Assembly: GCF_036013525.1 (NCBI RefSeq)
Contig: NZ_CP107853.1
Span: 6,944,001 to 7,008,000 of the forward strand
Reading direction: 5' to 3'
Origin: Nonomuraea sp. NBC_00507
Lineage (GTDB): Bacteria > Actinomycetota > Actinomycetes > Streptosporangiales > Streptosporangiaceae
DNA length: 64,000 nucleotides
The position numbers and the translations under genes are program-made. The notes under the pieces were generated by a model that saw nothing but the letters and a program-made list of their open reading frames with translations, had not been told where the DNA came from and searched no databases. Shown here piece after piece: positions 15,731 to 30,372 of the stretch. Within the stretch, counting starts at the first letter, position 1. The number at the start of each line of letters is the position of its first letter.

Positions 15731-16342
15731 CTACGCGTGGTCGGCGCAGCAGGGTGTCGGGTTGGGCACCTCGGCCGGCGCGATGCGGCCGCCGGCGGCG
15801 GGCATCGCCTGCAGCGTCATCAGTCCGTCCCGCCACACCGGCCTGACATGGTCGGCCGTCGCGACCAGCACGTCATCGCCGGGCGGATCGGGGGAGGCGA
15901 GCACCACCACCCGTTCGATGGCGGACCTGCCCAGCAACTCGCCCACGCGCACAGTGCCCGTGAGCAGGTCACGGCCGGGATAGGCGACCACCCGCCCGCC
16001 CCGCCGCGCCTCGTGCTCCGCCGCCGCCAGCGCCGCCCCGTCCGCCAGCGGCCCGGCACGGTGCTCGCCGAGCACCCACGACACGTCCGCGGGAACGCCC
16101 GCGACCGACTCCGAGCCGGACGCCGCTACCGACGCCGCTACCGACTCCGCTACCGACTCCGCGGCTGATTGCGGCACGGCCAGCGAGCACGCCACGTGCG
16201 GGTCGCCGCCTGCCGCGTCCGCCGGGACGAAATGGGTGCATCCGATGGCGTCGCCCGGCAGGCCGAGCGCCTGCGCCACGGTGTGGAGCAGGTGCTCGGC
16301 CTGCTGAAGGGTTCGCGACCCCGCGTTGAAACCGAGGATCAT
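15731..16342 (-). CDS. Protein of unknown function coupled to the PHP-type phosphoesterase
   Basis: A 203-residue protein starting MILGFNAGSRT. Its ATG overlaps the stop of the upstream PHP gene as ATGA, so they are coupled. A central Ser/Ala/Val/Glu-rich stretch (about residues 60-80) is encoded by a 12-bp tandem repeat. The flanks contain well-ordered beta/alpha-like sequence (VRVGELLGRSAIERVVVLAS) that could be a small nucleotide- or sugar-binding fold, but I recognise no family. The C-terminus is Cys-rich (PTPCCADHA). Confidence 0.6.
   Translation of the reverse strand: MILGFNAGSRTLQQAEHLLHTVAQALGLPGDAIGCTHFVPADAAGGDPHVACSLAVPQSAAESVAESVAASVAASGSESVAGVPADVSWVLGEHRAGPLADGAALAAAEHEARRGGRVVAYPGRDLLTGTVRVGELLGRSAIERVVVLASPDPPGDDVLVATADHVRPVWRDGLMTLQAMPAAGGRIAPAEVPNPTPCCADHA
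16122..16157. repeat. Three 12-bp tandem repeats inside a gene
   Basis: GCCGCTACCGAC is repeated three times with one base change per copy. In the minus-strand gene it encodes the low-complexity Ser-Val-Ala run. Being a multiple of three, copy-number change would keep the frame. Confidence 0.75.
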
Positions 16343-18051
16343 CGGCGCGGAAGCACCCAGATTGGGTTGCTGTAGAACCAGAGGTCGTTCCACGGGTTGG
16401 CGTTGCCGTACACGTCGATCGCCGGCCCGTGCGGGTCCACGGCCGCGCCCAGCAGGCCCGGCGCGCTGCGCTTGCCGTCGGTGCCGCGCAGCCGCACGTA
16501 CACCGGCCGGTCGATCACGCCCAGCTGGTACGTGAACGTCACGGTCCCGCTGTTCTTGTTCACCTCGTACGACTGCACGACCTTCGTGTTCGGCGTGGTG
16601 AAGGCGTCTTTGTCGGCGGCCGGGCCGGTGACGTCACCCTGGATGACGTCCACCCGGGCCAGCGTCGGCACGACCTGCGCCCAGTTCGGCCGCCCGGCGA
16701 GAGTGATCTCGATGGCCAGCTCGGCCCGCGCCCCCTGCCGCACGTGCAGGGTGTCGCCGAGGGTGACCCCGCGCTGCCCGGTCCCGGCCGCCCGCGCCCG
16801 CACCACCAGCCCGCTGATCAGCCCGCCGTGGTCGACCCAGATCCGCCCGGCGCGCAGACCCTCCATGACGGCCCGGTAGTCGAAGCCCTGGCTGCCGACG
16901 TGCGTCCGGCTGTAGTAGCCGGGCCAGAAGTCGCCGGAGCCGAAGTTGGCCACACCCTTGTAGATAGGGTCCTCGTACTTGCCGTTGGCGTTGAAATCGC
17001 TGCCCGGGCCGCGGTCGCTGGTGTCGCCGTGCACCCAGTGCGCGTCGGAGTTCGCGGTGATCCACCACGGCTTGCCCTCCGCCAGGAGGCTGTCCCACAG
17101 CCCGCCCACAGTGGAGGTCATCCAGTCGAACCCGCCGAAGGTCTTGTAGCTCTCGGCCGGGTACGCGCGGAAGGAGTCCGCGCCCGGGTTGCTGTCGTAG
17201 TAGCCGCGGCCGCCGCCCGGGCCGTTCGGCTTGGCGATGCCCGCCGCCTGGTGGCCGGGAGCGCCCTCCATGCCGACCGCGATCGACGGCTGGGCGTCCC
17301 GCCACCCGCGGATCTCGTGCGGCGAGTCCAGGCCCTTCCTGGACGGGTGGTTGGCGAGGAACAACGCGTCAGGAACCCGGCGCCGCCTGACGGCCTCGGC
17401 CAGGAAGTTCAGCCCGGCGATCGCCAGGGCCTCGTTCTGCGGCGTGCTCGCCCCGGCGCCCTTGATCGAGCCGTCGAAGGAGCTCTCGAACTCCTTCAGC
17501 GTCGCCACCTCGTTGCTGCCCGGGGCGACGAACACCGTGCCGTGCTCGGCGGCCGGGATGTTCCACTCCAGTCCCTGGAAGACCAGCGTGTCCTTGATCG
17601 CCTCGCGGGCGGCCACGATGTCCGGGTTGACCTTGTCCACGCCGATCTTCGCGTGCGTCGCGCCGCCGTGGTCGGTGATGACCATCCAGCCCAGCCCGTA
17701 CGCGTTGCCGTGCCGTACCTGGTCGATGACCCGGTAGATGCCGTCCGAGCTGTACTGGGTGTGGATGTGGTGGTCGCCGGCCAGCCACAGGTAGCCGTCC
17801 TTCGGCTCCCGCCCGCGCCCCGCGATCTGCTGCTCGCCGTCCGCCGCCGCGACGCCCGGCGTCCCCAGCACGCCGGCGGCCGCGAGCCCCGCCCCGAGCA
17901 GGCCCGCCCGCCGGAACATCCGCCGCCGGGACAACTGCCCCGGAGACAGCTCGCCGTCCGGAATCGAAAGATCTCGCGCCGCCGCGCCGTCCCCTTCGTG
18001 CGGCTGCTCGTGCTTGTGGTCGTGCTCGTGGTGATGGTGCCCGTGGCCCAT
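16339..18051 (-). CDS. Tat-exported PHP-domain metal-dependent phosphoesterase with His-rich N-terminus
   Basis: A 570-residue protein. The first 20 residues are a His/Glu-rich metal-binding stretch (GHGHHHHEHDHKHEQPHEGD), unusually placed before a twin-arginine signal (SRRRMFRRAGLLGAGLAAAG). The mature domain carries PHP metal motifs: GDHHIHTQYSSDG, VITDHGG, FQGLEWN, FLANHPSRKG and ITANSDAHW. It is predicted to be an exported phosphodiesterase or phosphatase. ATG 18051 is the most likely start (GGAG eleven bases upstream); a GTG at 18090 is also in frame. It overlaps a downstream gene of unknown function (ATGA). Confidence 0.87.
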   Translation of the reverse strand: MGHGHHHHEHDHKHEQPHEGDGAAARDLSIPDGELSPGQLSRRRMFRRAGLLGAGLAAAGVLGTPGVAAADGEQQIAGRGREPKDGYLWLAGDHHIHTQYSSDGIYRVIDQVRHGNAYGLGWMVITDHGGATHAKIGVDKVNPDIVAAREAIKDTLVFQGLEWNIPAAEHGTVFVAPGSNEVATLKEFESSFDGSIKGAGASTPQNEALAIAGLNFLAEAVRRRRVPDALFLANHPSRKGLDSPHEIRGWRDAQPSIAVGMEGAPGHQAAGIAKPNGPGGGRGYYDSNPGADSFRAYPAESYKTFGGFDWMTSTVGGLWDSLLAEGKPWWITANSDAHWVHGDTSDRGPGSDFNANGKYEDPIYKGVANFGSGDFWPGYYSRTHVGSQGFDYRAVMEGLRAGRIWVDHGGLISGLVVRARAAGTGQRGVTLGDTLHVRQGARAELAIEITLAGRPNWAQVVPTLARVDVIQGDVTGPAADKDAFTTPNTKVVQSYEVNKNSGTVTFTYQLGVIDRPVYVRLRGTDGKRSAPGLLGAAVDPHGPAIDVYGNANPWNDLWFYSNPIWVLPRR

Positions 18052-18197
18052 GACTTCGCGTTCTCCGTCCCGCCGGAAATGAGGGTGCACCGGCTACGGC
18101 GGGAGCGTGGCGGAACGGGATGAAGCGGACATGAACACCAAGAGATCAACGTCTGCCTGTGAGCTGTGAAAACAGGGGGCGTCGGCACGCGGGGAGG

Positions 18198-18226
18198 CCT
18201 GGAGGCGGACGCTTGGCCTCCAGGCG
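18198..18226. terminator. Hairpin at the decayed end of a relic gene
   Basis: GCCTGGAGGC (18198-18207) pairs perfectly with GCCTCCAGGC (18217-18226) across a 9-base loop. It sits between the relic gene and the PHP gene, both read leftwards, and may act as terminator for the relic gene. Confidence 0.45.
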
Positions 18227-18232
18227 GTCGGC

Positions 18233-18787
18233 CTCGCCGCGTGGCGAGGATCTCGCGCCCCCGCTCCGGCGTGATCAGGGCCGCGACCTCGGGGTGGGCC
18301 AGCAGTGCGATCGGCTCGATGTGATCTTCGCCCATCGGTCGCCACACCGCCAGGGCTTCGCGCAGCATCGGCCACGGGTCGGCCCCTGGAGCGGCGCGGG
18401 CGGCGCGCACCGCGGCGTCGAACTCCGCGTTGCCGAACCGGACGCGGAACCCGGGCTCGGCCGCCCGCTCGGGGAAGCCGGAGACCAGCCGCCTCACCGT
18501 GTCGGACCCGAGCTGGGCCAGGGTGTCCCGAACGGAGAGATTGGAGAAGCGCCCGGCCAGCTCGTGCGCGGACAGCACCTCGGCCGTCAGGAGATCCTCA
18601 TCCGGCCGCGCGGCGGCCTCGTCGCCGTGCCGCAACACCGACAGGATCGTCTGGCCCGCCGCATGATCGCCTCTTCTCGTCCCACTCGCGCTGAGTCTGG
18701 CACTGCGAGCGGTCCAGGGCGTGGAATCCGGCGTACAGGTCGTACATCAGTTCGTAGAAGGAGCCGTGCCGCTGCGGCCGAGGTCAC
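18233..18787 (-). pseudogene. Frameshifted relic of an unknown actinobacterial gene
   Basis: Protein-like sequence continues across different frames on the minus strand. A GTG at 18787 with GGAGG upstream begins MTSAAAA. From about 18768 to 18673 a second frame reads HGSFYELMYDLYAGFHALDR and on to REWDEK. From about 18662 a third frame reads AAGQTILSVLRHGDEAAA and continues through LSAHELAGRFSNLSV to LITPERGREILA, then runs on without a natural stop into the PHP gene. At least two small indels are needed to restore one protein. The original function is unknown to me. Confidence 0.65.
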
Positions 18788-19001
18788 GCCTCAGCCTCCG
18801 CTACCTGTGCGGCCGAGGCGGGGGCGTACCCGAGCCACTCGCGCTCATCTCAGCAGACGCCCCCGACATCGCGGGCGCGCAATCCCGGTCTCCTCGTGGA
18901 ACCCAGCCGCGACGACACCTGCTTCGGAGGATTCGGGCTGCAACGGAGTCCCTCTGTGAACCGATGACTCTGTGGAGCGACCTGGCGACGGGGGGAGACG
19001 C

Positions 19002-19286
19002 GTGGGGCTGCACGGTGAAGCGGTCGAGCTGCTGCGAGACGCGCTGACGTGGTGGACGCTGCCGGCGGCGGCCTGGGTGGACGTGGAAGTGGTGGTCGGC
19101 AGGCTGGAGTCCTCGGGCGACGTGGCGGTCGAACTCGGCCACTTGGAGCTGGCCGGACCGATGCGGATCAGCACCTGGTACGGCGACCAGCCCGTGGTGC
19201 CGATGCCTGAGGAACTGCGAGAGCGGGTCAACGAGCTGATCCACACCCTGACCCTCGACACTGAGGACGCCGATGGAGCCTGCTGA
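19002..19286 (+). CDS. CATRA system-associated small protein
   Basis: A 94-residue protein with an amphipathic helix-rich N-terminus (HGEAVELLRDALTWW), a short beta segment HLELAGPMRIS and a C-terminal helix PMPEELRERVNELIHTL. It matches my memory of the small partner found before CHAT-protease/TPR genes in actinobacteria and named CATRA-associated. The GTG start at 19002 is chosen for the GGGGGAG six bases upstream. It overlaps the next gene by 14 bases, and the three genes 19002-24164 form one translationally coupled operon. The biochemical role is unknown; it may be a regulator or adaptor. Confidence 0.8.
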   Translation: MGLHGEAVELLRDALTWWTLPAAAWVDVEVVVGRLESSGDVAVELGHLELAGPMRISTWYGDQPVVPMPEELRERVNELIHTLTLDTEDADGAC

Positions 19287-20454
19287 CTTGGCCAACCCCG
19301 CTCTGATCGTCCACGTGTTCGCCGGCGCCGACGGCCCGCAGGCCCGGGAGCACGAACGGCGGCTGCGCGAGATCTGGGACGCGCTCGGTGACCGGCTCGG
19401 CATGCCCGTGACGCATGCCGGGCCGATCGAGGTGCGCACCGCGGACGGGGACTCGGGACGGCAGGCGCTGCTGCGCCGGGAACGCGACATGCGCTGCCTG
19501 AGCGTGGCGTTGACGGGCGGGACCTGGCGGGAGCTGAACGAGCTGTGGCGCGAGTGCGCGGGTGACGCCGGCGCGTGGGCCATGGGCGAGTGCCGGCTGT
19601 TCGTCGCCTATCCGCGCACCGCGCCGACCGCGCGGCGGACGAACGCGGTCCTGCGGGCGCTGCCCGAGCCGTACTCGCGGGGCCGGATGGCGACGGTCAG
19701 AGGCGTGGCGGTGTGGGAGGTCGGCTTCGACGATGACGAGCGCAGCCGGCGGACGTTCGCGATGCTGGCGCCGCCCGAGCTGGAGGCCAAGCTCGACGCG
19801 TGGGCCTGGACGCGTGGAGATGACCGGATGCCGCCGCTGGTGCGGCACCTCATGCACGCCGCCAAGCTCCGCTACGAGCTGCGCGTCTATCGCCAGGGCA
19901 AGGGCTTCCGCGCCGCCCGCCACCGGGTGGACGAACAGGTGGAGACCCTGCTGAAGACGCTCGGCGGCGACGACCTGCCGGCCGCTCGGCGTGAGCTGGC
20001 GGTCCGGCAGACCGCCGAGGCCGGCCTGATCTGGACCCTGACCAGGCTGCGGGAGATGCAGACGACCGTGGGGATCGCCCGGCACAACATGCGGGAGCAG
20101 TCCCTGGGCGACGACCTGGACCTGGCCGACTGGCTCCGCATGCGCCTGGACGACGATCTCGCCTACGCCGAGGCGACGCGGGAACGCGCCCGCGAGATCG
20201 GCGCCATCGCCGATCAGGTGATGGCGGAGCGGTTGCAGCGTAGGGCGGAGGAGACCGAGCGCCGCTGGGAGCGGTTCCGCGTGCTGGAGACGGCCGTGGT
20301 CGGGATGCTGCTCATGGTGCTGGCCGCGATTCAGGCACTGGGTTACCGCGTGCCCGTTCCCGAGAGCGTCAAGCCGGTCATCGTGGGAGGGCTGGGCCTG
20401 ACGGCTTTCGCGCTGACCGCGTTCGGCTTCTTCAGATGGCGGAGGAGACCATGA
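19273..20454 (+). CDS. CATRA conflict-system membrane protein (caspase/TPR-associated)
   Basis: A 393-residue protein: a globular N-terminal domain opening with LIVHVFAGADGPQ, a long helical, probably coiled-coil region (about 200-335, rich in Arg/Glu), then two transmembrane helices near the C-terminus (about 338-355 GMLLMVLAAIQALGY and about 368-386 VIVGGLGLTAFALTAFGFF) with a basic tail. The hairpin of two helices suggests membrane insertion with the bulk in the cytosol. It overlaps both neighbours (14 and 4 bases). Within the module it is a candidate membrane effector or an anchor for the protease. That role is inference. Confidence 0.82.
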   Translation: MEPADLANPALIVHVFAGADGPQAREHERRLREIWDALGDRLGMPVTHAGPIEVRTADGDSGRQALLRRERDMRCLSVALTGGTWRELNELWRECAGDAGAWAMGECRLFVAYPRTAPTARRTNAVLRALPEPYSRGRMATVRGVAVWEVGFDDDERSRRTFAMLAPPELEAKLDAWAWTRGDDRMPPLVRHLMHAAKLRYELRVYRQGKGFRAARHRVDEQVETLLKTLGGDDLPAARRELAVRQTAEAGLIWTLTRLREMQTTVGIARHNMREQSLGDDLDLADWLRMRLDDDLAYAEATRERAREIGAIADQVMAERLQRRAEETERRWERFRVLETAVVGMLLMVLAAIQALGYRVPVPESVKPVIVGGLGLTAFALTAFGFFRWRRRP

Positions 20455-23400
20455 ACCCCGAGGTTCACATCGCCAGGTTCCTGCAGACCCGTGATCTGCG
20501 GGAGCTGGAGTCCGGCATCGCCGCCTACCACAGGGAGATCGCCCGCGACCCTGATCCGCTGCTGCTGACCGGCCTCGGCAACGCGATGAGCATGCGCTTC
20601 GACGCGCTCGGGCAGGAGCCGGACCTGACCGAGGCGATCACGCTGCACCGCCGCGCGGTGGCGGCCCTGGCGGGAAAGCCCGGATTGGCCGAGGCCCAGG
20701 CCGGTCTTGCGACCGTGCTGGGGAATCACCGGCACATCGCCGGCCATCACCTGGACGAGGTGCTGCAGCTGTATGCGTCGGCGCTGCGCGGTGACCTGGT
20801 GGACAGGCCGCTGGTGCTGGCCAACCACGGCATGGCGCTGGTGCTCGGCTACCAGATCACGGGCGACAGGCGGCACCTGCTCGACGGCATCGACGCGTTA
20901 CGCGTGTCCGTGCGGGCCACGGACCCGGCGCACGCCGCCTACCTGTGGCGGCTGGCCAAACTGGCCAGCACCCTGGTGATGGCCAACGACGATCCGGACC
21001 GCGCCGCGGAGCTGAAGGAAGCCCTCCATGTCATCCGGGAGCGGTACGCGCAGGCCCCCGAGCCCGTCAAGCAGGAGATCCAACTGCTCGTCGGGGCGCT
21101 CCTGCACGCGGATGAGATTCCCGTCCTCCCGCCCGAGCAGTGGGAGCAGATCCGCCGCTCCATGGCCGGCCACCTGCCCTCCGGCCCGCAAGCCCGTCCC
21201 CAATTCCTGGCTGGTCTGGGCGGCATGCTGATCGAGGACGTGCGCCGATCAGGCCGGCTCGAACGTGCCGATCAGGCGGCCGAGCTGCTGCGCCAGGCCG
21301 TGGCTCAGACACCGCCCGGCTACCCCCAGCTGGCCGAGTTGTACATTGGGCTCGGCGCCGTCCTCGGCCTGCGCATGGAGTTCAGCGGCACGTACGAGGA
21401 CCTCGACGAGATGATCGACGCCCTGCGACGCGGGGTCGCGGCGGCCAGGCCCGGCGACGACAACGCCGGAATGTACCACTCGGACCTGGGCAACGGGCTG
21501 ATGCTGAAGTTCCGGCTCGGCGGCGGCCTGACCGTGCTCAACGAGGCCATCGCCTGTTACCGGCGGGCCCTGGCCGTCTCGCCGGACCATCCGGAACGGG
21601 CCATGGCGTACACCAGCCTCGGCTCGGCGCTGTTCTTCAGATACGACCTGACCGGAAAAGCGCCCGATCTCGACGAGGCGATCGACAGCCACCGCACGGC
21701 CACGTCGCTGACCGCTCCTGAGCACGCCAACTACGCGCTGTATCTGGCCAACCTGGGCGGCGCGTTGGAGCAGCGCTACAAGGTGACCCGCCGGGGCGAG
21801 GACTCCGAAGAGGCGGCGAAGGTGTTGCGCGAGGCGGTGGCCGCCACGCCGGAGACCAGCCCGTACCGCCCCGGCCATCTCGCGAACCTCGCCGAGATGC
21901 TGCTCGAGCGCTACAGGTTCACCGGGCAGAGCGCGGCGCGGGAGGAGGCCGACGAGCTGTTGCGCGAGGCCATGGGAACGATTCAGCCGGGAAACATCCA
22001 AGGGCCCTTGGTCCTCAACAGCCTCGGCACCGTGCTCATGGAGGGAGAGGAGGACATCGACGGGGCGATCGGCGTGTTCCGCCGCGCCCGCGATGCCGCC
22101 CCGGCCCGCACCTGGACGCGGACCCTCGCGACCGTCAACCTGGCCAATGCGCTGCTGTTGCGGTCCACGTCGAAGGAGACACCCAGGGCTCAGCTGGCGG
22201 CGATCACACGGCTGCTGGACCCGGCCGCCGAGAAGGGCATGTGGAGAAAACTGCTGCGGGGGGACCGCCGGGTGGAGGAGACGCCGGACCTGGACGAGGC
22301 GGTCGCGCTCTTCACCGAGGCGATCAAGGCCGACCCGCCCGGTGGTCCCGTCGCCTATAACGGGCTGGGCCTGGCGCTCAGCACGCGTTACGGACTCACC
22401 GGCAAGCCCAGGACACTCCTGCAGGCCGTCCGCGCCGCCCGCACCGCGGTCGAGACGTCGGCCCCCGGCGACTCGACCCGATCGATCGCGCTGTACTACC
22501 TGGCAGAAGTCCTTGTCGAGCAGTGGGAGCTGACCCGGGCGGAGGCCGACCGTGACGAGGCGCTGGCCCGTTTCCGCGAGGCCACCCAGGTGGAGACCGC
22601 CTCGGCCGGCTGGCGGGCGAGCGTGGGCAAACGCTGGGGCGAGGTCGCCATGGAGGCGGGCCTGGCCGTCGAGGCCGTCGAGGGGTTCGCCGTCGCGGTG
22701 GCCGCCCTGGACGAGGCGGCCTGGCGCGGGCTGGGCCGCGCCGACCAGGAGCGAATCCTGGGCGAATACGAGAGCCTGGCCCGCGACGCCGCCGCGGCGG
22801 CGATCAGGACCGGCGACGCCGGCCGGACGCTCGAACTGCTCGAACAGGGCAGAGGCGTCATGTTCGCCCAGGTCATCGGGGACCGCGCCGCCTACGACCG
22901 GCTGCGCGCGGCGGCGCCGGAACTGGCCGACCGATTCGGCGAGGTGCAGGATGAGCTGGACGCGGCCGAGCGTATGGACCTGAACGAAGACCTGGCCCTG
23001 TCCGGTGGCAGCGGCGGACCCGGAGCCCTGGGGATGGCAGGCGGCCCGAGTGCCGATCGCCGCCGGCTTCTGGATCACCGGCACACGCTGGCGCGCCGCC
23101 GCCGCGAGATCCTCGAGGCGATCAGGAAGCTGCCGGGCTTGACCGACTTCCTGCGCCCGCCGCACGCCGACGGCTTGCTGGCCGCCGCCGAGGACGGCCC
23201 CGTCGCGGTGGTGAACGTCAGCCGCCACGGCTGCGACGCGCTGCTCGTGACCTCCGAGGGCGTGCGGGTCGTTCCACTCGACTTCACCGCCTCCGCGGCC
23301 CAGGACCAGGCCGACCGGTTCGTCGCGGCCCTGCGCGGCAAGGCCGTCGACGAGGTGACCTCGTGCCTGGACTGGCTGTGGGCGCACGTCACCGGCCCGG

Positions 23401-24164
23401 TGCTGGAGGCACTCGGCCCGCTGCGCCGGATCTGGTGGTGCCCGACCGGCCCGCTGACCCTGCTGCCGCTGCACGCCGCCGGATCGGCACTCGATCTGGT
23501 CGTCTCCAGCTACACGCCCACGTTGCGGGCGCTCATGCACGCCCGCGGGCAGTCCGGGCCGCGGGCCGAGCGGCGTGTCCTGCTGGTCGGCGTCCCTGAG
23601 GTTCCCGGCGACGCCGCGCTGAAAGGCGTGGTCCGCGAGCTGGAGGCGGCCAGGCGCTGGCTTCCCGGCGCGCGGGAGCTGACAGCGGACGACGCGACTT
23701 GCGAGCAGGTGCTCAGCGCGCTGGATGACACCGCATGGGTGCACTTCGCCTGCCACGCCGCCCAGCGGCTGCACGACCCCTCCCACGCCAGGCTGATCCT
23801 GCACGACCGGCCGCTGACCGTGCGTGAGCTGGCCGCCCGCCGCCTCGGGCAGGCCGAGCTGGCGTTCCTGAGCGGGTGCGAGACCTCGCGCGGCGGGACC
23901 GTGCTGACCGACGAGGCGGTGAGCATCGCCTCCGCCATCCAGCTCGCCGGGTTCCCGCACGTGATCGGCACGCTCTGGCCGATCGCCGACGTGCACGCCC
24001 CGGCCGTGGTCGACGCGGTGTACGCGATGCTCACGGCCGGCGGCACCCGCGAGCCGCATCCGCACGGAGCGGCCGCCGCCCTGCACGCCGCCGTCCGCTC
24101 CCTGCGCGACCGCCGCCCCGGCTTCCCGATCTTCTGGGCCCCGTACGTGCACATCGGACCCTGA
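20451..24164 (+). CDS. TPR-repeat CHAT-domain caspase-like protease, CATRA module
   Basis: A 1237-residue protein. Residues about 1-800 are an array of helical tetratricopeptide-like repeats (for example the unit around LDEAIDSHRTATSLT). After a Gly-rich linker (about 845-865) comes a CHAT domain from about 900. Its catalytic dyad is visible: His1102 in HFACHAAQ and Cys1143 in FLSGCETSRGG, 41 residues apart, as in caspase-like CHAT proteases. ATG 20451 is chosen because it overlaps the previous stop as ATGA and GGAGGAG lies just upstream; ATG 20436 is also in frame. The TPR array is the likely sensor, and the protease the switch of a conflict or cell-suicide system. Confidence 0.92.
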   Translation: MNPEVHIARFLQTRDLRELESGIAAYHREIARDPDPLLLTGLGNAMSMRFDALGQEPDLTEAITLHRRAVAALAGKPGLAEAQAGLATVLGNHRHIAGHHLDEVLQLYASALRGDLVDRPLVLANHGMALVLGYQITGDRRHLLDGIDALRVSVRATDPAHAAYLWRLAKLASTLVMANDDPDRAAELKEALHVIRERYAQAPEPVKQEIQLLVGALLHADEIPVLPPEQWEQIRRSMAGHLPSGPQARPQFLAGLGGMLIEDVRRSGRLERADQAAELLRQAVAQTPPGYPQLAELYIGLGAVLGLRMEFSGTYEDLDEMIDALRRGVAAARPGDDNAGMYHSDLGNGLMLKFRLGGGLTVLNEAIACYRRALAVSPDHPERAMAYTSLGSALFFRYDLTGKAPDLDEAIDSHRTATSLTAPEHANYALYLANLGGALEQRYKVTRRGEDSEEAAKVLREAVAATPETSPYRPGHLANLAEMLLERYRFTGQSAAREEADELLREAMGTIQPGNIQGPLVLNSLGTVLMEGEEDIDGAIGVFRRARDAAPARTWTRTLATVNLANALLLRSTSKETPRAQLAAITRLLDPAAEKGMWRKLLRGDRRVEETPDLDEAVALFTEAIKADPPGGPVAYNGLGLALSTRYGLTGKPRTLLQAVRAARTAVETSAPGDSTRSIALYYLAEVLVEQWELTRAEADRDEALARFREATQVETASAGWRASVGKRWGEVAMEAGLAVEAVEGFAVAVAALDEAAWRGLGRADQERILGEYESLARDAAAAAIRTGDAGRTLELLEQGRGVMFAQVIGDRAAYDRLRAAAPELADRFGEVQDELDAAERMDLNEDLALSGGSGGPGALGMAGGPSADRRRLLDHRHTLARRRREILEAIRKLPGLTDFLRPPHADGLLAAAEDGPVAVVNVSRHGCDALLVTSEGVRVVPLDFTASAAQDQADRFVAALRGKAVDEVTSCLDWLWAHVTGPVLEALGPLRRIWWCPTGPLTLLPLHAAGSALDLVVSSYTPTLRALMHARGQSGPRAERRVLLVGVPEVPGDAALKGVVRELEAARRWLPGARELTADDATCEQVLSALDDTAWVHFACHAAQRLHDPSHARLILHDRPLTVRELAARRLGQAELAFLSGCETSRGGTVLTDEAVSIASAIQLAGFPHVIGTLWPIADVHAPAVVDAVYAMLTAGGTREPHPHGAAAALHAAVRSLRDRRPGFPIFWAPYVHIGP

Positions 24165-24279
24165 CCGAAGATGATCTCGGGTCGGGGGATGGGCGAATAC
24201 TGCAGGCAGCTCTCGCCGTCACATCGCCACAGCGCCCGGCGAATGCGCGGGGCCCGCAAACGGGGCCCGGCCACCTCAC

Positions 24280-25995
24280 TTAGAATCTACCTCTGGGGAA
24301 TTTCGGCCCGGGGCCGTATTTGACTCCGGTTCCCCCGCGTGCGTCTCCAATTTTCTCGAGTATTTGCCGCTCCCTCAGGCTGTTGAGCAGGTCGCGGGCG
24401 GCGTATACATGAATATCGAAGAGCCGACGAATCGTCTGGTTGGTGACGAAGCCGTACTCTCTCACATGGTCGACGACCTTCTGATCGGTGTCATCGACGG
24501 CGCGGCGCCGATACGAGACCGATCGTGACATTGCCGCGAGCACGTCAGACCGTAGCCGGTACGTTGGGAACGGCTTCTTGGCCGTTCTCTTGGTCGGCTC
24601 GACCAAGTCGTACTCCTCTGCCATGGCGAGCAAGACTTCTTGCGCCTCGACCGGAGTCCTCTGGATTATCCCAGCAAGTTTGCACGCTTCGATTCCGCTG
24701 TTGTGGCGGAGGTGCGCCATAGCGAGCAGCACATTCAGGTCTCGGCCCGCTTTGGGAGGCAGGTCATTGATGAAGCGCACGAATGCGTCATTTCCTATGC
24801 CACCCGCCAGCGTGGCGCGAACGAGTGTCCCGCTGTCCTCGAACAGGGGCGGCTCCTTGCCGACCCGCAGCATTTCCCGGTAGACCCGGTCCACTCCCTG
24901 TCCCGTGCGCTCCGCCAGTTGCAGAATGGAGACCGTTTCTGTGAGCAGTCGGTTTCTGGGCGTCGAAGGATATGTGAGGATGTTGGCGGGCGTCACCCCG
25001 GATACCAGGCCGCCGGGGCTGGTGATCACCAGGCGTTCGGGGGAGTGCTCGACGTCGACTGTGCCGCCCGTCTCGTACGATCGGTGAATAAGGGCGTTCA
25101 CCACCAACTCTCGCACCGCTACGCTCGGATAATCGGTGAGTTGAAGCTGGATCCCGCCCGCCAGGTTGAGCGGATAGATTTCCCTGCGACTCTCTATGGC
25201 ATCGGTCAGAGTCTGGATGGCCGCGATGAGTGGTCGGTTGCCCCGCATCCTTCCGGTGGCTTCACTTCCGGATGTGGGCCGGAATTGGTATGAGTATCCG
25301 TAGCCGGGCACGATCTCTGTGATCAGTGGTTCGCTGGCGAGTAGCAGTACGCCCGCGTTGGTGACGCTTCCGTTAGGTGCGATCAGCCGGAGAGACTCGA
25401 GAAGTGCCTGGTCTGACAAATGGGCGAGATGGTCACGACCAGCAGCTTCCAGAAGGCGGCGAAGTCTTTCGATTTCGACCCCACTGAGCCGGTCGATGCC
25501 GATGCTGGAGGCATCCGCCGACCAATCCACTTGGCCGCGTGCAATCATGACCTCCCGCTGTTGATGGGGAGGGAAGGGGAGACACTCTTTTCCAAGACGG
25601 CGCGTGGCCAATCCAGCCGCATTGCTGTGTGGCATGACACCCTGGGGAACGGTGACAAGCACGATGCGGACGCCGTCAATATATCTTTCGCTGACGAACG
25701 CCGTGATCGGCGGGCTCGTGCGGTCGAATATCCCTTTGCGTATAAGGTCGACCGTATAATTCGGCGGAACTCCGCGAAGCGCACGCTCGCGGTCGGTCGC
25801 CTTGTCGTCGATGCCAAGGATTACGGTGCCACCGCGAGCGTTTACGAAGCAGACAAGGGCGTCGGCGAGCATGTTGAGGCTCGCTTTGGGGGAGTTGGCG
25901 ACAAGCTTGAAGTCCAGCGTGTCCGTCTCCAGGGAGTCCGCAGTGACTCCTTGCCCGAGCATGGCGAGTGCTGCGTCCGCTTCGGCGTGGTTCAC
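24280..25995 (-). CDS. Schlafen/AlbA_2-type putative DNA-binding, ATP-binding protein (COG2865-like)
   Basis: A 571-residue protein. The N-terminal AlbA_2/Schlafen-like domain contains LDFKLVAN and NARGGTVILGID. The middle has a GHKL-type ATPase signature (AVRELVVNALIHRSYE, LVITSPGGL, and RNRLLTETVSILQLAERTGQG). The C-terminus carries winged-helix segments (YGFVTNQTIRRLFDIHVYAA). Its base composition is visibly less GC-rich than its neighbours, suggesting transfer. GTG 25995 is the start and has only a weak GAGAC upstream; a 10-bp inverted repeat lies 13 bp upstream of it. It converges with the CATRA operon. Members are annotated as regulators and recur near defence genes. Confidence 0.88.
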   Translation of the reverse strand: MNHAEADAALAMLGQGVTADSLETDTLDFKLVANSPKASLNMLADALVCFVNARGGTVILGIDDKATDRERALRGVPPNYTVDLIRKGIFDRTSPPITAFVSERYIDGVRIVLVTVPQGVMPHSNAAGLATRRLGKECLPFPPHQQREVMIARGQVDWSADASSIGIDRLSGVEIERLRRLLEAAGRDHLAHLSDQALLESLRLIAPNGSVTNAGVLLLASEPLITEIVPGYGYSYQFRPTSGSEATGRMRGNRPLIAAIQTLTDAIESRREIYPLNLAGGIQLQLTDYPSVAVRELVVNALIHRSYETGGTVDVEHSPERLVITSPGGLVSGVTPANILTYPSTPRNRLLTETVSILQLAERTGQGVDRVYREMLRVGKEPPLFEDSGTLVRATLAGGIGNDAFVRFINDLPPKAGRDLNVLLAMAHLRHNSGIEACKLAGIIQRTPVEAQEVLLAMAEEYDLVEPTKRTAKKPFPTYRLRSDVLAAMSRSVSYRRRAVDDTDQKVVDHVREYGFVTNQTIRRLFDIHVYAARDLLNSLRERQILEKIGDARGGTGVKYGPGPKFPRGRF

Positions 25996-26007
25996 GTCTC
26001 TGAGGCT

Positions 26008-26043
26008 AACTGAGAAGTGTAGTAATCACAACGCTTCTCAGTT
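26008..26043. promoter_or_regulatory. 10-bp inverted repeat upstream of the Schlafen-like gene
   Basis: AACTGAGAAG (26008-26017) and CTTCTCAGTT (26034-26043) are perfect inverted copies separated by 16 AT-richer bases. The left arm is 13 bp from the GTG start of the Schlafen-like gene, so an autoregulatory operator is plausible. The rest of the gap to 26212 shows no gene and no transposase. Confidence 0.5.
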
Positions 26044-26212
26044 GGTCCTCAATGAAAGGATGGCGGCGCGTCGTGTCGCCAGGCCTGTCGACCTGACCAG
26101 CCACGGGAGCCTTCGCGTCACCCGGACGGCCCCTTGCCCACTAGACGTCCTGGTTCCGGACTCGGCTCACGTCGCCTGCTGAGGTCGTCGATTCGCTTGT
26201 CATCATGGGTGG

Positions 26213-27187
26213 ATGGTCGTTTGGGATGAGTCCGATTCCGTGGTGACGAGTCTGGAGTCGTTGCGGGGTCCGTTGACCGGATACTGCTATCGCCTCCTTG
26301 GCGCCTCGAGCGAGGTCGACGACGCCGTGCAGGAGACGATGCTCCGGGCGTTCCGGGCGATCGAGAGTTATGACCCGGATCGAGCGGGGCTCTCGACGTG
26401 GGTGCACAGGATTGCCACGAATGTCTGTCTGGACATGCTGCGGAGCGCAGAGCGACGGGCGTTGCCGTGGGACATGGGCCCGGCATCGAGTGGCACCGAC
26501 ATCGGTGTCCCTCTCTCGGCCGCGCGGTGGGTGGAGCCGTTGGCGGACTCTCGCTTGACGGGAACGGCCGACCCGGCGCACCTCGCCATGCGACATGAGA
26601 CGCTGCGCCTGGCCTTCATCACCGCTCTGCAGTGGTTGCCGCCGCGTCAGCGTGTCGTGCTGGTGTTGCGGGATGTCCTCGGGTTCACCGCCACCGAGGC
26701 TGCCGCGATCATGGAGACGTCGGTGGCGGCGGCGAACAGCGCGTTGCAGCGGGCGCGGGCCACCCTGGAGAAGCACCGGCCGCGTCCAGCTGACGCGCCC
26801 GAGCCGGACGACGTGGCTCAGCGCGATCTTCTGCGGCGCTACGTGGACGCCTTCCAGACGCACGACGTCCACACGCTGGTCGGTGTGCTGGCCGACGATG
26901 TCCGGTCAGGGATGCCGCCCTTCCTGTGGTGGCTGGACGGGCCGGCGCATGTCGCCGCGGCGATGTCGAGTACGGATGCCTGTGCCGATGACCGTCTTGT
27001 CCGCGGCGGGCCGGCCAACGGGTGCTGGACGCTCGGTCAGTACCGGCCGGACGAGAGCGGGGTCCTGGTGCCGTTCGCCCTCTTGGTGCTCGAGCTCCGG
27101 AGTGGGCGCATCAGCGAGATCGTCACGTTCCTGGGCTATGGTGACCGCTTCGGCGCGTTCGGTCTGCCGGAATTCCTCGAAAACTGA
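26213..27187 (+). CDS. ECF RNA polymerase sigma factor with SnoaL-like C-terminal domain (SigG/SigJ type)
   Basis: A 324-residue sigma-70-family protein. Region 2 is seen in YCYRLLGASSEVDDAVQETM and STWVHRIATNVCLDMLR. Region 4 is seen in LPPRQRVVLVLRDVLGFTAT and IMETSVAAANSALQRAR. Residues about 205-324 form a SnoaL/NTF2-like domain (LLRRYVDAFQTHDVHTLVGV and RPDESGVLVPFALLVLE), typical of the SigG/SigJ-like group, where the domain modulates activity without an anti-sigma factor. It is probably a stress-type regulator. It is followed by a mycothiol-dependent-type enzyme gene 78 bp downstream on the same strand. Confidence 0.9.
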   Translation: MVVWDESDSVVTSLESLRGPLTGYCYRLLGASSEVDDAVQETMLRAFRAIESYDPDRAGLSTWVHRIATNVCLDMLRSAERRALPWDMGPASSGTDIGVPLSAARWVEPLADSRLTGTADPAHLAMRHETLRLAFITALQWLPPRQRVVLVLRDVLGFTATEAAAIMETSVAAANSALQRARATLEKHRPRPADAPEPDDVAQRDLLRRYVDAFQTHDVHTLVGVLADDVRSGMPPFLWWLDGPAHVAAAMSSTDACADDRLVRGGPANGCWTLGQYRPDESGVLVPFALLVLELRSGRISEIVTFLGYGDRFGAFGLPEFLEN

Positions 27188-27265
27188 TCTAGGGCAACCG
27201 ATGAGTCCAGCCGCCTTCCGTCGTACAAGGGATGACACGTCCACTACGACCCGAAGGTCACCTTC

Positions 27266-27883
27266 ATGTCATCGACCGACGCAGACCTGAAGCAGCACAT
27301 CCACGCCGAGAGAGAGCGTCTGGCGAGTCTGCTCGCCGGACTCCACGACAAGGACTGGGACCGTCCGTCCCTGTGCTCGGGATGGCGGGTGCGTGAAGTC
27401 GTCGCTCACATCACCGCACCCTTCCGCACGACCCTGCCCCGGCTGGTGGTGGGACTGGCCGCGGCACGGTTCTCCTTCGACCGGTACGCCGATCGGGCCG
27501 CCCGCATGGACACCACCCGCATGTCCGATGCCGAACTCCTCACTTCCCTGCGCGCCAACATCACCAACGCATGGCAGCCACCAGGCGGAGGGCCTGCCGG
27601 AGCACTGGCTCACGACACCATCCACGGCCTCGACATCACCGAGCCGTTGGGTCTGCCGTCGTCTCCGGTCGAGCGCATCGCCCTCGTGCTGGCTGGCACG
27701 AACGCCCGGAGCTTGTCGTACTTCGGGGTCGATCTCGCGGGCATCCAGTTGCGCGGCATGGACGCCGACGTACGCCTGGGCGAGGGCGAGCCCGTCGACA
27801 TGCCGGTCAAGGACATCCTGCTGACCATCACCGGACGCCGGCCCCTACCGCAGGGCCGGGCCGCCTCGCACAGGGGAGAGTGA
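27266..27883 (+). CDS. Mycothiol-dependent maleylpyruvate isomerase-family protein
   Basis: A 205-residue member of the DinB/MDMPI metal-binding fold. It has the N-terminal family signature (RERLASLLAGLHDKDWDRPS, then LCSGWRVREVVAHI, whose His is a metal ligand) and a second His in ALAHDTIHGLDI. Such enzymes use mycothiol for isomerisation or conjugation, and mycothiol synthesis is present in this genome (mshC at 52.2 kb). The actual substrate is unknown. It probably shares a transcript with the sigma factor gene upstream. Confidence 0.85.
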   Translation: MSSTDADLKQHIHAERERLASLLAGLHDKDWDRPSLCSGWRVREVVAHITAPFRTTLPRLVVGLAAARFSFDRYADRAARMDTTRMSDAELLTSLRANITNAWQPPGGGPAGALAHDTIHGLDITEPLGLPSSPVERIALVLAGTNARSLSYFGVDLAGIQLRGMDADVRLGEGEPVDMPVKDILLTITGRRPLPQGRAASHRGE

Positions 27884-27886
27884 TCG

Positions 27887-28075
27887 ATGAGCACCGTAGA
27901 CGAACTGCGCAGCCTGGTGCTCAGCCTGCCGGACGAAGCAGCCGCCTTGCGGTCTCCGGGGTCCATTGAGGTGATGGAGCGGAAGCCGATCGGTGTCCGA
28001 GCCGACATCGCCCGATGTGACGCCGGCCTTCTCGCCGACCTCGTCCACATCTGCTGGTCGCACGTCAAGGGTTAA
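27887..28075 (+). pseudogene. Possible internally deleted MmcQ/YjbR-like remnant
   Basis: A 62-residue frame starting 3 bases after the previous stop, with GGGGAG upstream. The N-terminus STVDELRSLVLSLPDEAA resembles the start of MmcQ/YjbR-type proteins and the C-terminus LLADLVHICWSHV resembles their end. Those proteins are about 110-130 residues, so the middle seems deleted. It may still be translated as a short protein. Its TAA and the stop of the convergent gene share the palindromic bases TTAA. Confidence 0.45.
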
Positions 28076-28482
28076 GAGGCTCGGCGGAAAAGGCAGAAAG
28101 GGTGCCCATCGGGATCCAGGAGCACGCGGACATCCTCCTGCGGCTGGAACTCGGCCGGCACCGCACCGCACCCCACGGCCCACTCCACTGCCGCGTCCAG
28201 ATCGTCGACCTCGATGTCGAGATGCTGGGAGGCGGTCTGCTTGCCGGAGACACTCGGCCACACCGGCCTTGCGTAACACCGCTCGTACTCGAAGTTGAGG
28301 GTGGGGGCGACCGTGTGCTCCGGCGGGCGGATCTGCGCCCAGCCGCCCTCCTCAGGTTCGTCTGGTGCCGGGCCTTCTTCGGTGGTGACGGGCAGGCCCA
28401 GCAAGTGGGAATAGAACCGCGCGAGCTCGCGCGGTTGTGATGTTCCGATCGTCACGGAGGTTACTTGCAGACGCGGCCGCAT
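28072..28482 (-). CDS. VOC/glyoxalase-family protein
   Basis: A 136-residue vicinal-oxygen-chelate protein with the double beta-alpha-beta-beta-beta layout: VTSVTIGTSQPRELARFYSH at the start, a central SQHLDIEVDDLDAAVEWAV with a metal-ligand-type His, and the terminal LLDPDGHPFCLF. It could be a glyoxalase, dioxygenase or bleomycin-resistance-type binding protein; substrate unknown. GGGAG precedes ATG 28482. Confidence 0.88.
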   Translation of the reverse strand: MRPRLQVTSVTIGTSQPRELARFYSHLLGLPVTTEEGPAPDEPEEGGWAQIRPPEHTVAPTLNFEYERCYARPVWPSVSGKQTASQHLDIEVDDLDAAVEWAVGCGAVPAEFQPQEDVRVLLDPDGHPFCLFRRAS

Positions 28483-28530
28483 GGCCCGAGGCTCCCTTCG
28501 AAGGTCGCGTGGAGAAGAGCGATGACGCCG

Positions 28531-30285
28531 CTATGACAGAGCCCGGGCGGCGTGGATCAGCGGGACGTGGCTGAAGGCCTGGGGGAAGTTGCCCACGAGG
28601 CGGCCGTAGCGCGGGTCGTACTCCTCCGCCAGCAACCCCACATCGTTCCGCAGCCCGAGCAGCCGCTCGAACAGGTCCTTCGCCTCCTCCTTCCGCCCCT
28701 GCATCGCCATGACCTCCACCAGCCAGAAGCTGCACGCCAGGAACGCGCCCTCCCCGCCCGGCAGCCCGTCCACGTCGTTGTCCGCGGCGATCGGATAACG
28801 CAGCACGAACCCGTCCGACATGAGCTCCTTCTCGATCGCCGCCACCGTGCCCACGATCCGGGGATCGTCGACGGGCAGGAATCCAACGACGGGCATCATC
28901 AGCAAAGCGGCGTCCAGCTCCGACGATCCGTACGACTGCGTGAAGGTGTTCCGGCTCGGGTCGTACCCCTTGTCACAGATCTCCGCGTGGACGACGTCCC
29001 GCAACGTCCGCCACTTCTCCACGGGGCCGGTGCGGCCGAACCGCTCCACGTATTTGACCGCCCGGTCGAGCGCGGCCCAGCACATCACCTTGGAGTGCAC
29101 GAAGTGCCGTCGCGGGCCCCGCACCTCCCACAGTCCCTCGTCCGGCTCGTCCCAGTGGTCCTCCACGTAGTCGAGCAGCTGCCGCTGGATCGTCCAGGCC
29201 CGGTCGTCGGCCGACAACCCTCGGCTGCGCGAGACGTAGAGGCAGTTCATGACCTCCCCGTACACGTCCAGTTGCAGCTGCTTGACGGCCTCGTTCCCGA
29301 TCCGCACCGGGCGCGAGTCCTCGTAGCCGTCGAGCCAGTCCAGCCGCAGCTCCGGCAGGCGGCGTTCGCCGGCGACGCCGTACATGATCTGCAGGTCCTG
29401 CGGGCGGCCGGCGATCGCCCGCAGCAGCCACGAGCGCCAGTCCGCCGCCTCCTCCAGGTAGCCGGAGGAGATGAGCGCGTCGAGCGTCATCGTCGCATCG
29501 CGCAGCCAGCAGAAGCGGTAGTCCCAGTTGCGCACCCCGCCCAGGTCCTCGGGGAGCGAGGTGGTGGGCGCGGCCACGATGCCGCCGGTGGGCGCGTACG
29601 TGAGCGCCTTCAGCGTGATCAGCGACCGCATCACGGCGTCCCGGTACGGCCCGTCATAGGTGCATCGGGAGACCCAGTCCGCCCAGAAGGCCTCGGTCTC
29701 GTCGAGCTGGTCGTCGCAGTCGATCTGCGGCGGCATCGGCTCGTGCGAAGGATGCCAGGTGAAGATGAACGCCAGCCGGTCGCCCTCCTTGACGGTGAAC
29801 GTGGCCCGGTGCGCGTAGTCGCCGCCCTTCAGCGGCACGGGGGAGTGCAGCCACGCCGAGTCGGGCCCGCCGATCGCCTGCAGGTGCCCGTTGGTGCGCC
29901 GCACCCACGGCACGATCCTGCCGTAGTCGAAGCGCACCCTGAGCACCGTGGACATCTCAACGGTCCCGGAGACGCCCTCGACGATCCGCACCACGTCGGG
30001 GTTGCGGTCGCGGGGCGGCATGAAGTCGACCACGCGGACCGTGCCGGTCGTGGTGTCCCACTCGCTCTCCAGAATGAGAGTGTCGGGCCGGTATCGCCGC
30101 CGGTCGGCGTGCCTGCGGCCGGTCGGGCCGAGCCACCAGTGACCGTTGCGTTCGCCGCCGAGCAGCGCCGCGAAACACGAGGGGGAGTCGAACCTGGGCA
30201 GGCAGAGCCAGTCGATGGAACCGTCCCTGGCCACGAGCGCGGCCGACTGCATGTCTCCGATCAGGGCGTAATCCTCGATCCGCAT
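28531..30285 (-). CDS. Glycoside hydrolase family 15 protein (glucoamylase/trehalase type)
   Basis: A 584-residue cytoplasmic enzyme starting MRIEDYALIGDMQSAALV, characteristic of the actinobacterial GH15 group. An N-terminal beta-sandwich domain (DWLCLPRFDSPSCFAALL) precedes the (alpha/alpha)6 barrel with RNWDYRFCWLRDA, the acid motif DEGLWEVRG and FVHSKVMCWAALDRAVKY. In mycobacteria relatives act as trehalase; here glucoamylase and trehalase activity cannot be separated. ATG 30285 is chosen because the family sequence begins there. It is followed, leftwards, by the separate VOC gene. Confidence 0.92.
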   Translation of the reverse strand: MRIEDYALIGDMQSAALVARDGSIDWLCLPRFDSPSCFAALLGGERNGHWWLGPTGRRHADRRRYRPDTLILESEWDTTTGTVRVVDFMPPRDRNPDVVRIVEGVSGTVEMSTVLRVRFDYGRIVPWVRRTNGHLQAIGGPDSAWLHSPVPLKGGDYAHRATFTVKEGDRLAFIFTWHPSHEPMPPQIDCDDQLDETEAFWADWVSRCTYDGPYRDAVMRSLITLKALTYAPTGGIVAAPTTSLPEDLGGVRNWDYRFCWLRDATMTLDALISSGYLEEAADWRSWLLRAIAGRPQDLQIMYGVAGERRLPELRLDWLDGYEDSRPVRIGNEAVKQLQLDVYGEVMNCLYVSRSRGLSADDRAWTIQRQLLDYVEDHWDEPDEGLWEVRGPRRHFVHSKVMCWAALDRAVKYVERFGRTGPVEKWRTLRDVVHAEICDKGYDPSRNTFTQSYGSSELDAALLMMPVVGFLPVDDPRIVGTVAAIEKELMSDGFVLRYPIAADNDVDGLPGGEGAFLACSFWLVEVMAMQGRKEEAKDLFERLLGLRNDVGLLAEEYDPRYGRLVGNFPQAFSHVPLIHAARALS

Positions 30286-30372
30286 GCCTACAGACGCTAC
30301 TCGCAAATGGGGTGATCCCGCGGCCGAGTCCGATCATGTCGCGTCATGTCCGGACCGGCCGCGGAGCTCACG

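Follow-up and report, generated by a model that had tools for sequence, protein, structure and literature searches.

A complete CATRA-type module of Nonomuraea, on a putatively exchangeable segment, encodes a candidate protease-controlled membrane effector of CorA-like layout

CATRA conflict systems reportedly go back to a founding paper by Burroughs and Aravind in 2020, which is cited in eLife in 2021. We analyzed a member of this family in the soil bacterium Nonomuraea sp. NBC_00507 (RefSeq assembly GCF_036013525.1), in a stretch of 64,000 nucleotides that we call the window (contig NZ_CP107853.1, positions 6,944,001 to 7,008,000 of the forward strand). In two publications (PMC8195603, PMC12657218), such systems are named only as computational predictions, and the second of these, the Panoptes paper, places them among the phyletically restricted ones. 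There was no experimental study of CATRA among the literature matches listed, and we found no work treating CATRA together with CorA, in both cases with a coverage lying mostly outside subscription journals. According to PMC10600005, a CorA-family membrane protein serves as an immune effector in type III-B CRISPR, where it is activated by SAM-AMP. In contrast to the window system, this effector is triggered by a nucleotide messenger and has neither a CHAT protease nor CATASP. The locus of the window is a complete CATRA-type three-gene module, a member of an already catalogued family of probable defense systems. The reading we favor, which we hold with about as much confidence as doubt, is that this complete module on an exchangeable segment encodes a CorA-like membrane effector controlled by the CHAT protease. 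With moderate confidence, the new element is the CorA-like layout of the membrane class of CATRA proteins, the family itself being known.

The module consists of three open reading frames (ORFs) with overlapping ends on the + strand, coding for the CATASP, CATRA, and CHAT proteins (19002-24164 of the window):

19002-19286, + strand: CATASP small protein, 94 residues, matching PF20271 (the ORF is open from GTG 18972, giving 104 residues)
19273-20454, + strand: CATRA protein, 393 residues, a core followed by a two-helix membrane hairpin (PF20269, PF20270, NF038357, AlphaFold2 model)
20451-24164, + strand: TPR-like/CHAT protease, 1237 residues, matching PF12770 (ATGA overlap, GGAGGA)

All the family models match the window proteins, with the Pfam models far above their curated cut-offs. 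CATASP matched PF20271 with E 1.3e-19 (70.3 bits, cut-off 29), CATRA-N was found with E 4.4e-43 in the scan with the PF20269/PF20270 pair (147.9 bits, cut-off 27), CATRA-C with E 5.5e-31 (108.5 bits, cut-off 24.6), and the CHAT domain matched PF12770 with E 3.4e-40 (138.7 bits, cut-off 24). The NCBIfam model NF038357 (BN6_48550_fam) matched the CATRA protein with E 3.6e-81. The two proteins closest to the latter are 90% identical to it and both come from Nonomuraea, and GenBank relatives are already named 'CATRA conflict system' proteins by NCBI. A previous analysis of the nucleotide letters (hereafter the sequence-only reading) had assigned the locus to CATRA, and these hidden Markov model matches bear this out, as the ORF coordinates do for the sizes of 94, 393, and 1237 residues and the overlapping ends. 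Within the family, the window subfamily ends in a two-helix hairpin, whereas others have TIR, EAD1, GT4, PNPase, or SEFIR tails.

Immediately 5' of GTG 19002, the start of CATASP, lies GGGGGGAG. The ATG of CATRA (19273) precedes the stop of CATASP (19284-19286), giving an overlap of 14 bp. At the last junction, an ATGA, the ATG of the CHAT gene at 20451 overlaps the CATRA stop (20452-20454), with GGAGGA shortly upstream. Because of this overlap and of the GGAGGA preceding it, the three genes are very probably translated together. Scans of positions 18000-24600 for promoters and terminators gave no match.

Judging from its sequence, the CHAT protein carries the intact His/Cys dyad of a caspase-like protease. 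The residues are numbered from ATG 20451 (1237 residues):

23364-24158, + strand: CHAT protease domain, residues 977-1241 of the 1242-residue ORF (Pfam)
23754-23756, + strand: codon of the catalytic-type His1102 (1107 in the 1242-residue ORF), matching the CHG motif of PDB TPR-CHAT/CHAT chains in the alignment
23877-23879, + strand: codon of the catalytic-type Cys1143 (1148 in the 1242-residue ORF), aligned to the CET motif of the same chains

Both residues, named as a dyad in the sequence-only reading, are present, in motifs that align with those of PDB TPR-CHAT and CHAT chains. Among 95 CHAT ORF rows (duplicates included), 86 have His/Cys, 4 have Tyr/Cys, and 5 are gapped at one or both sites. 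The four Tyr/Cys rows correspond to two loci, each present twice; there, Tyr replaces the catalytic His (HFACYGH) and the Cys is kept in the CHAT proteins encoded next to GT4-type CATRA genes (L033:1-1512, L041:3284-6874). The earlier description as a TPR protein is a weak assignment, as all TPR Pfam models stayed below their cut-offs (best E 2.5e-5). The CHAT His/Cys motifs of Craspase (Cas7-11 with TPR-CHAT/Csx29) align with those of the window protease in a weak sequence match (E 0.005-0.07). An identity with Csx29 itself was ruled out by the cut-off of NF041237 (25 bits vs 300).

The three genes travel together. CATRA-N was above the cut-off in 25 of the 393 genomes of the class, and the 22 genomes with CATASP all lie within these 25. 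CHAT was present in 25/25 CATRA-N genomes vs 211/393 overall. In the sample of the phylum, 3 of the 296 genomes had CATRA-N, two of them of this class. There are 3 CHAT genes in the 12.9-Mb genome of the window, so that a chance adjacency of CHAT and CATRA is unlikely. We assembled 99 CATRA loci including the window (ORFs taken from the first start codon, such that the overlaps stated for them may be too large), and merging 7 duplicates left 92. CATASP was found within 300 bp of CATRA in 76 of them and CHAT within ~9 kb on each side in 63, counts that are lowered where the stretch is shorter at contig ends; any further gene family is limited to at most 12 of the 92. The values reach 23/24 for CATASP and 21/24 for CHAT in membrane-class loci. 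The trio singled out by the sequence-only reading is thus conserved in other genomes. One close relative of the window CATRA, in Herbidospora galbida (L060:7533-9641, duplicate L075), is without the membrane tail and has no CHAT in 19 kb; a CHAT gene lies ~20 kb away on the contig, and this CATRA locus looks decayed.

Pairwise distances of CATRA correlated with those of CATASP (r 0.57, 44 loci) and of the nearest CHAT (r 0.29, 50 loci) in Mantel tests, species kinship being included in these values. For CATRA and CHAT, r was 0.44 in 19 membrane-class loci and 0.48 in 16 TIR loci. In the 13 loci with two CHAT genes, the correlations were 0.12 and -0.08, neither of them significant. Five EAD1-type loci without CHAT have a C14-type caspase gene within 125 bp of CATRA (L052:6946-7896, L053, L055, L056, L057), assigned by Pfam for L052 and by matches to its profile for the others. 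As a general substitute for CHAT, the C14 caspase was rejected: it is next to CATRA in these 5 EAD1 loci and 7 kb off in one TIR locus, and 23 of the 29 CHAT-less loci are without both CHAT and the C14 family, other proteases not having been sought.

The CATRA protein is predicted to combine a soluble core with a membrane hairpin:

19300-19818, + strand: CATRA-N domain, residues 10-182, predicted alpha/beta (Pfam, AlphaFold2 model)
19831-20190, + strand: CATRA-C domain, residues 187-306, predicted helical bundle and start of a 77-residue helix at 279-355 (Pfam, AlphaFold2 model)
20275-20331, + strand: predicted transmembrane helix 1 (residues 335-353), an unbroken extension of the stalk helix (hydropathy, model)
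20332-20355, + strand: motif Q354-x3-Y358-x2-P361, end of transmembrane helix 1 and loop (membrane-class alignment)
20368-20424, + strand: predicted transmembrane helix 2, residues 366-384, then the basic end RWRRRP (hydropathy, model)

The hydrophobic segments at 335-353 and 366-384 correspond to the two C-terminal membrane helices already seen in the sequence-only reading. The coiled-coil-like body described there needs correction in that the first ~180 residues are predicted to be alpha/beta. The AlphaFold2 model has a predicted local distance difference test score (pLDDT) of 88.4, with lower confidence confined to the membrane part and the termini. In the 46 aligned membrane-class rows, Q354 is kept in 46, Y358 in 45, and P361 in 45, and the two-helix subfamily has a conserved charged juxtamembrane stretch, ERLQxRAExxERRWxRF. 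A proline-rich linker, present in most other tail classes, is missing from the membrane class. Helical periodicity of conservation was not significant in transmembrane helix 1 (p 0.17), the stalk (p 0.82), or transmembrane helix 2 (p 0.09), and no solved structure was related to CATRA by sequence at E<=1.

In the model, the CATRA protein has the layout of CorA. As in the CorA/Mrs2/ZntB channels, an alpha/beta domain and a helical bundle are followed by a long stalk helix running into transmembrane helix 1, a short loop, transmembrane helix 2, and a basic end; unlike the window protein, these channels have no CATASP and CHAT gene partners. In a Foldseek search of the PDB, 17 of the 18 chains at E<=0.001 are CorA (E 1.4e-4), largely one protein in many entries, and these lists give the top-ranked folds, from which the lack of a family does not exclude it. 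Several observations weigh against a relation to CorA. The rigid TM-scores of CATRA to CorA are low, and the soluble core alone gives only weak CorA matches. Sequence homology was rejected by hhalign (E 0.67, nothing above shuffled or reversed controls), in which 46 membrane-class rows and 55 other core rows were each compared with 25 CorA rows (from 30 loci, 3 omitted for odd translations and 2 for stops). The CorA Pfam model (PF01544) had no match in the CATRA protein at E<=1. Finally, the GMN motif is missing: G-x-N occurs in the last 110 residues of 1/46 membrane-class rows, with Q-x3-Y-x2-P in its place, compared with G-M/V/I/Q-N in 19 of the 25 CorA rows.

The CATRA core carries other tails at the position of the hairpin. 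In the 92 loci, we count 31 TIR (CAP12/Pycsar type), 24 membrane, 17 EAD1, 6 PNPase, 5 GT4, and 1 SEFIR tails, and 8 unclassed or broken ones, the classes being clusters named from scanned members; these shares are not frequencies, because 60 of the 99 loci were found with patterns from a 7-row alignment made up of membrane-class and GT4 sequences and a single decayed one. The number of hydrophobic segments is three or four in 16 of the 24 membrane-class members, and two in the window subfamily. Among the tails are domains that in other systems act on NAD, nucleosides, or glycans. As such effector-type domains occupy the same position in other CATRA members, the simplest view is that the hairpin acts as the effector, and the earlier proposal of a membrane effector stands as far as this effector-type C-terminus is concerned.

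All 37 proteins with the membrane module, in a search limited by length and shared words, also have CATRA, and its 3 strong matches in the 393 genomes are all CATRA loci (6 further matches were marginal, E 4e-5 to 9e-4). The TIR, PNPase, GT4, SEFIR, and EAD1 families also occur outside CATRA. Given this difference, we tentatively suggest that CATRA might be a CorA-fold channel adopted for immunity, a proposal that is possible and on balance doubtful. The window form would then be a CorA-like channel without GMN that is gated by a caspase, and in the TIR, PNPase, GT4, SEFIR, and EAD1 forms an enzyme or adaptor would have taken the place of the hairpin at the stalk end. In its favor, the membrane class is scattered over several branches of the CATRA tree, with only 2 changes needed once unclassed rows are dropped. 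Against it, the tree (88 of the 92 loci) has no outgroup, the data are compatible with one single membrane clade (p-AU 0.149), and the core by itself resembles CorA only weakly.

Some loci have additional components. In two of them (L102:6837-8720, L105:5319-7184), CATASP is fused to BTAD and a Thoeris ThsA macro domain (PADLOC ThsA match of the L102 fusion with E 4.6e-55) and overlaps the ORF start of a TIR-type CATRA; CATASP may thus link a nucleotide-signal sensor to CATRA. A gene of PycTM, the Pycsar effector, lies upstream of a TIR-type CATRA (L086:7693-8370, the one scanned member of a cluster in five TIR loci). A WD40 protein of 1157 residues follows CATASP in L045 (11422-14895), the one scanned member of a cluster present in six loci, five of EAD1 type and one unclassed.

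Defense genes often sit on exchangeable segments, and the chromosomal setting suggests that this module does so too:

18091-28530, no strand: segment of 10.4 kb missing at this site in three relatives, with the module and Schlafen/AlbA, sigma, MDMPI, and glyoxalase genes (flank comparison)

It lies between the genes of a CehA-type metallohydrolase (16339-18090) and a GH15 protein (28531-30306). Among the 12 relatives compared, all without CATRA, the CehA and GH15 matches are ~200 bp apart in three (L173, L176, L177), a 1433-residue NACHT protein is encoded between them in L171 (1881-6182), and other genes lie there in L172; in the stretch taken from each of the other seven, no CehA gene was detected. 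As the same site is empty in three relatives and holds a NACHT gene in one, we infer that the module rides on an exchangeable chromosomal segment, and the NACHT gene suggests that the site exchanges conflict genes. The GC content drops to 63-67% at 24-28 kb. A Schlafen AlbA_2/HATPase_c_4 gene with low GC at third codon positions adjoins the module (24280-25995), and a 91% identical stretch is at the same site in L172.

In the mechanism we propose, CATRA and CATASP, the two that co-vary most, would form a resting complex. The long TPR-like array of the CHAT protein would perceive or relay a cue of invasion or stress and free the caspase-like protease, whose target would be CATRA, CATASP, or an inhibitor bound to the complex. 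The CorA-like, probably oligomeric hairpin would then go leaky through the continuous stalk helix, and the cell would be stopped or killed. The step from the protease to the membrane is the least certain.

The main rival is a gasdermin-like release, in which CHAT cuts the CATRA stalk and frees the two-helix hairpin to form pores. The sequence-only reading had drawn this comparison, and the logic of gasdermins, a protease with a membrane effector, would be the same here; a CorA-type channel fits better, given the CorA layout of the predicted protein and the lack of a loose linker for cleavage in the membrane class. The intact dyad agrees with such a release, ERLQxRAExxERRWxRF could be a recognition site, and there is a precedent in Craspase, whose CHAT protease reportedly cuts the partner Csx30. 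However, the stalk is one predicted helix (in a model of lower confidence in the membrane part and termini), and no site common to the tail classes was seen on reading the alignments. The latter is not decisive, because Craspase orthologs reportedly cut a nonconserved site. Bacterial gasdermins also differ from the module in that no gasdermin family Pfam model matched the six proteins scanned at E<=1. Overall, we consider this release unlikely, yet the most serious competitor.

Less probable still, the hairpin could merely tether a CATRA-CATASP-CHAT complex, the protease being the effector on other targets. Two short helices suffice for anchoring, and TPR-like arrays can bind substrates. Yet the other tails at the hairpin position belong to domain types that serve as effectors or effector adaptors in other systems, and the near-invariant Q/Y/P motif goes beyond the needs of an anchor. 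A regulated ion transporter or stress-signaling module with no conflict role, in line with the CorA layout and with a 90% identical protein whose UniRef name starts with 'CorA-like Mg2+ transporter', is very improbable given the lack of a GMN signature, the patchy distribution (CATRA in 2/35 other genomes of the genus), the sibling TIR, PNPase, GT4, and SEFIR tails, and the site, occupied by a NACHT gene in one relative and empty in three.

CATRA systems would become testable through this structural reading of a CorA-type effector controlled by a caspase-like protease, and the compact, intact trio of the window, with His1102, Cys1143, Gln354, and Tyr358, makes a direct test possible. If true, this reading would reveal a protease-to-membrane death switch in multicellular bacteria.
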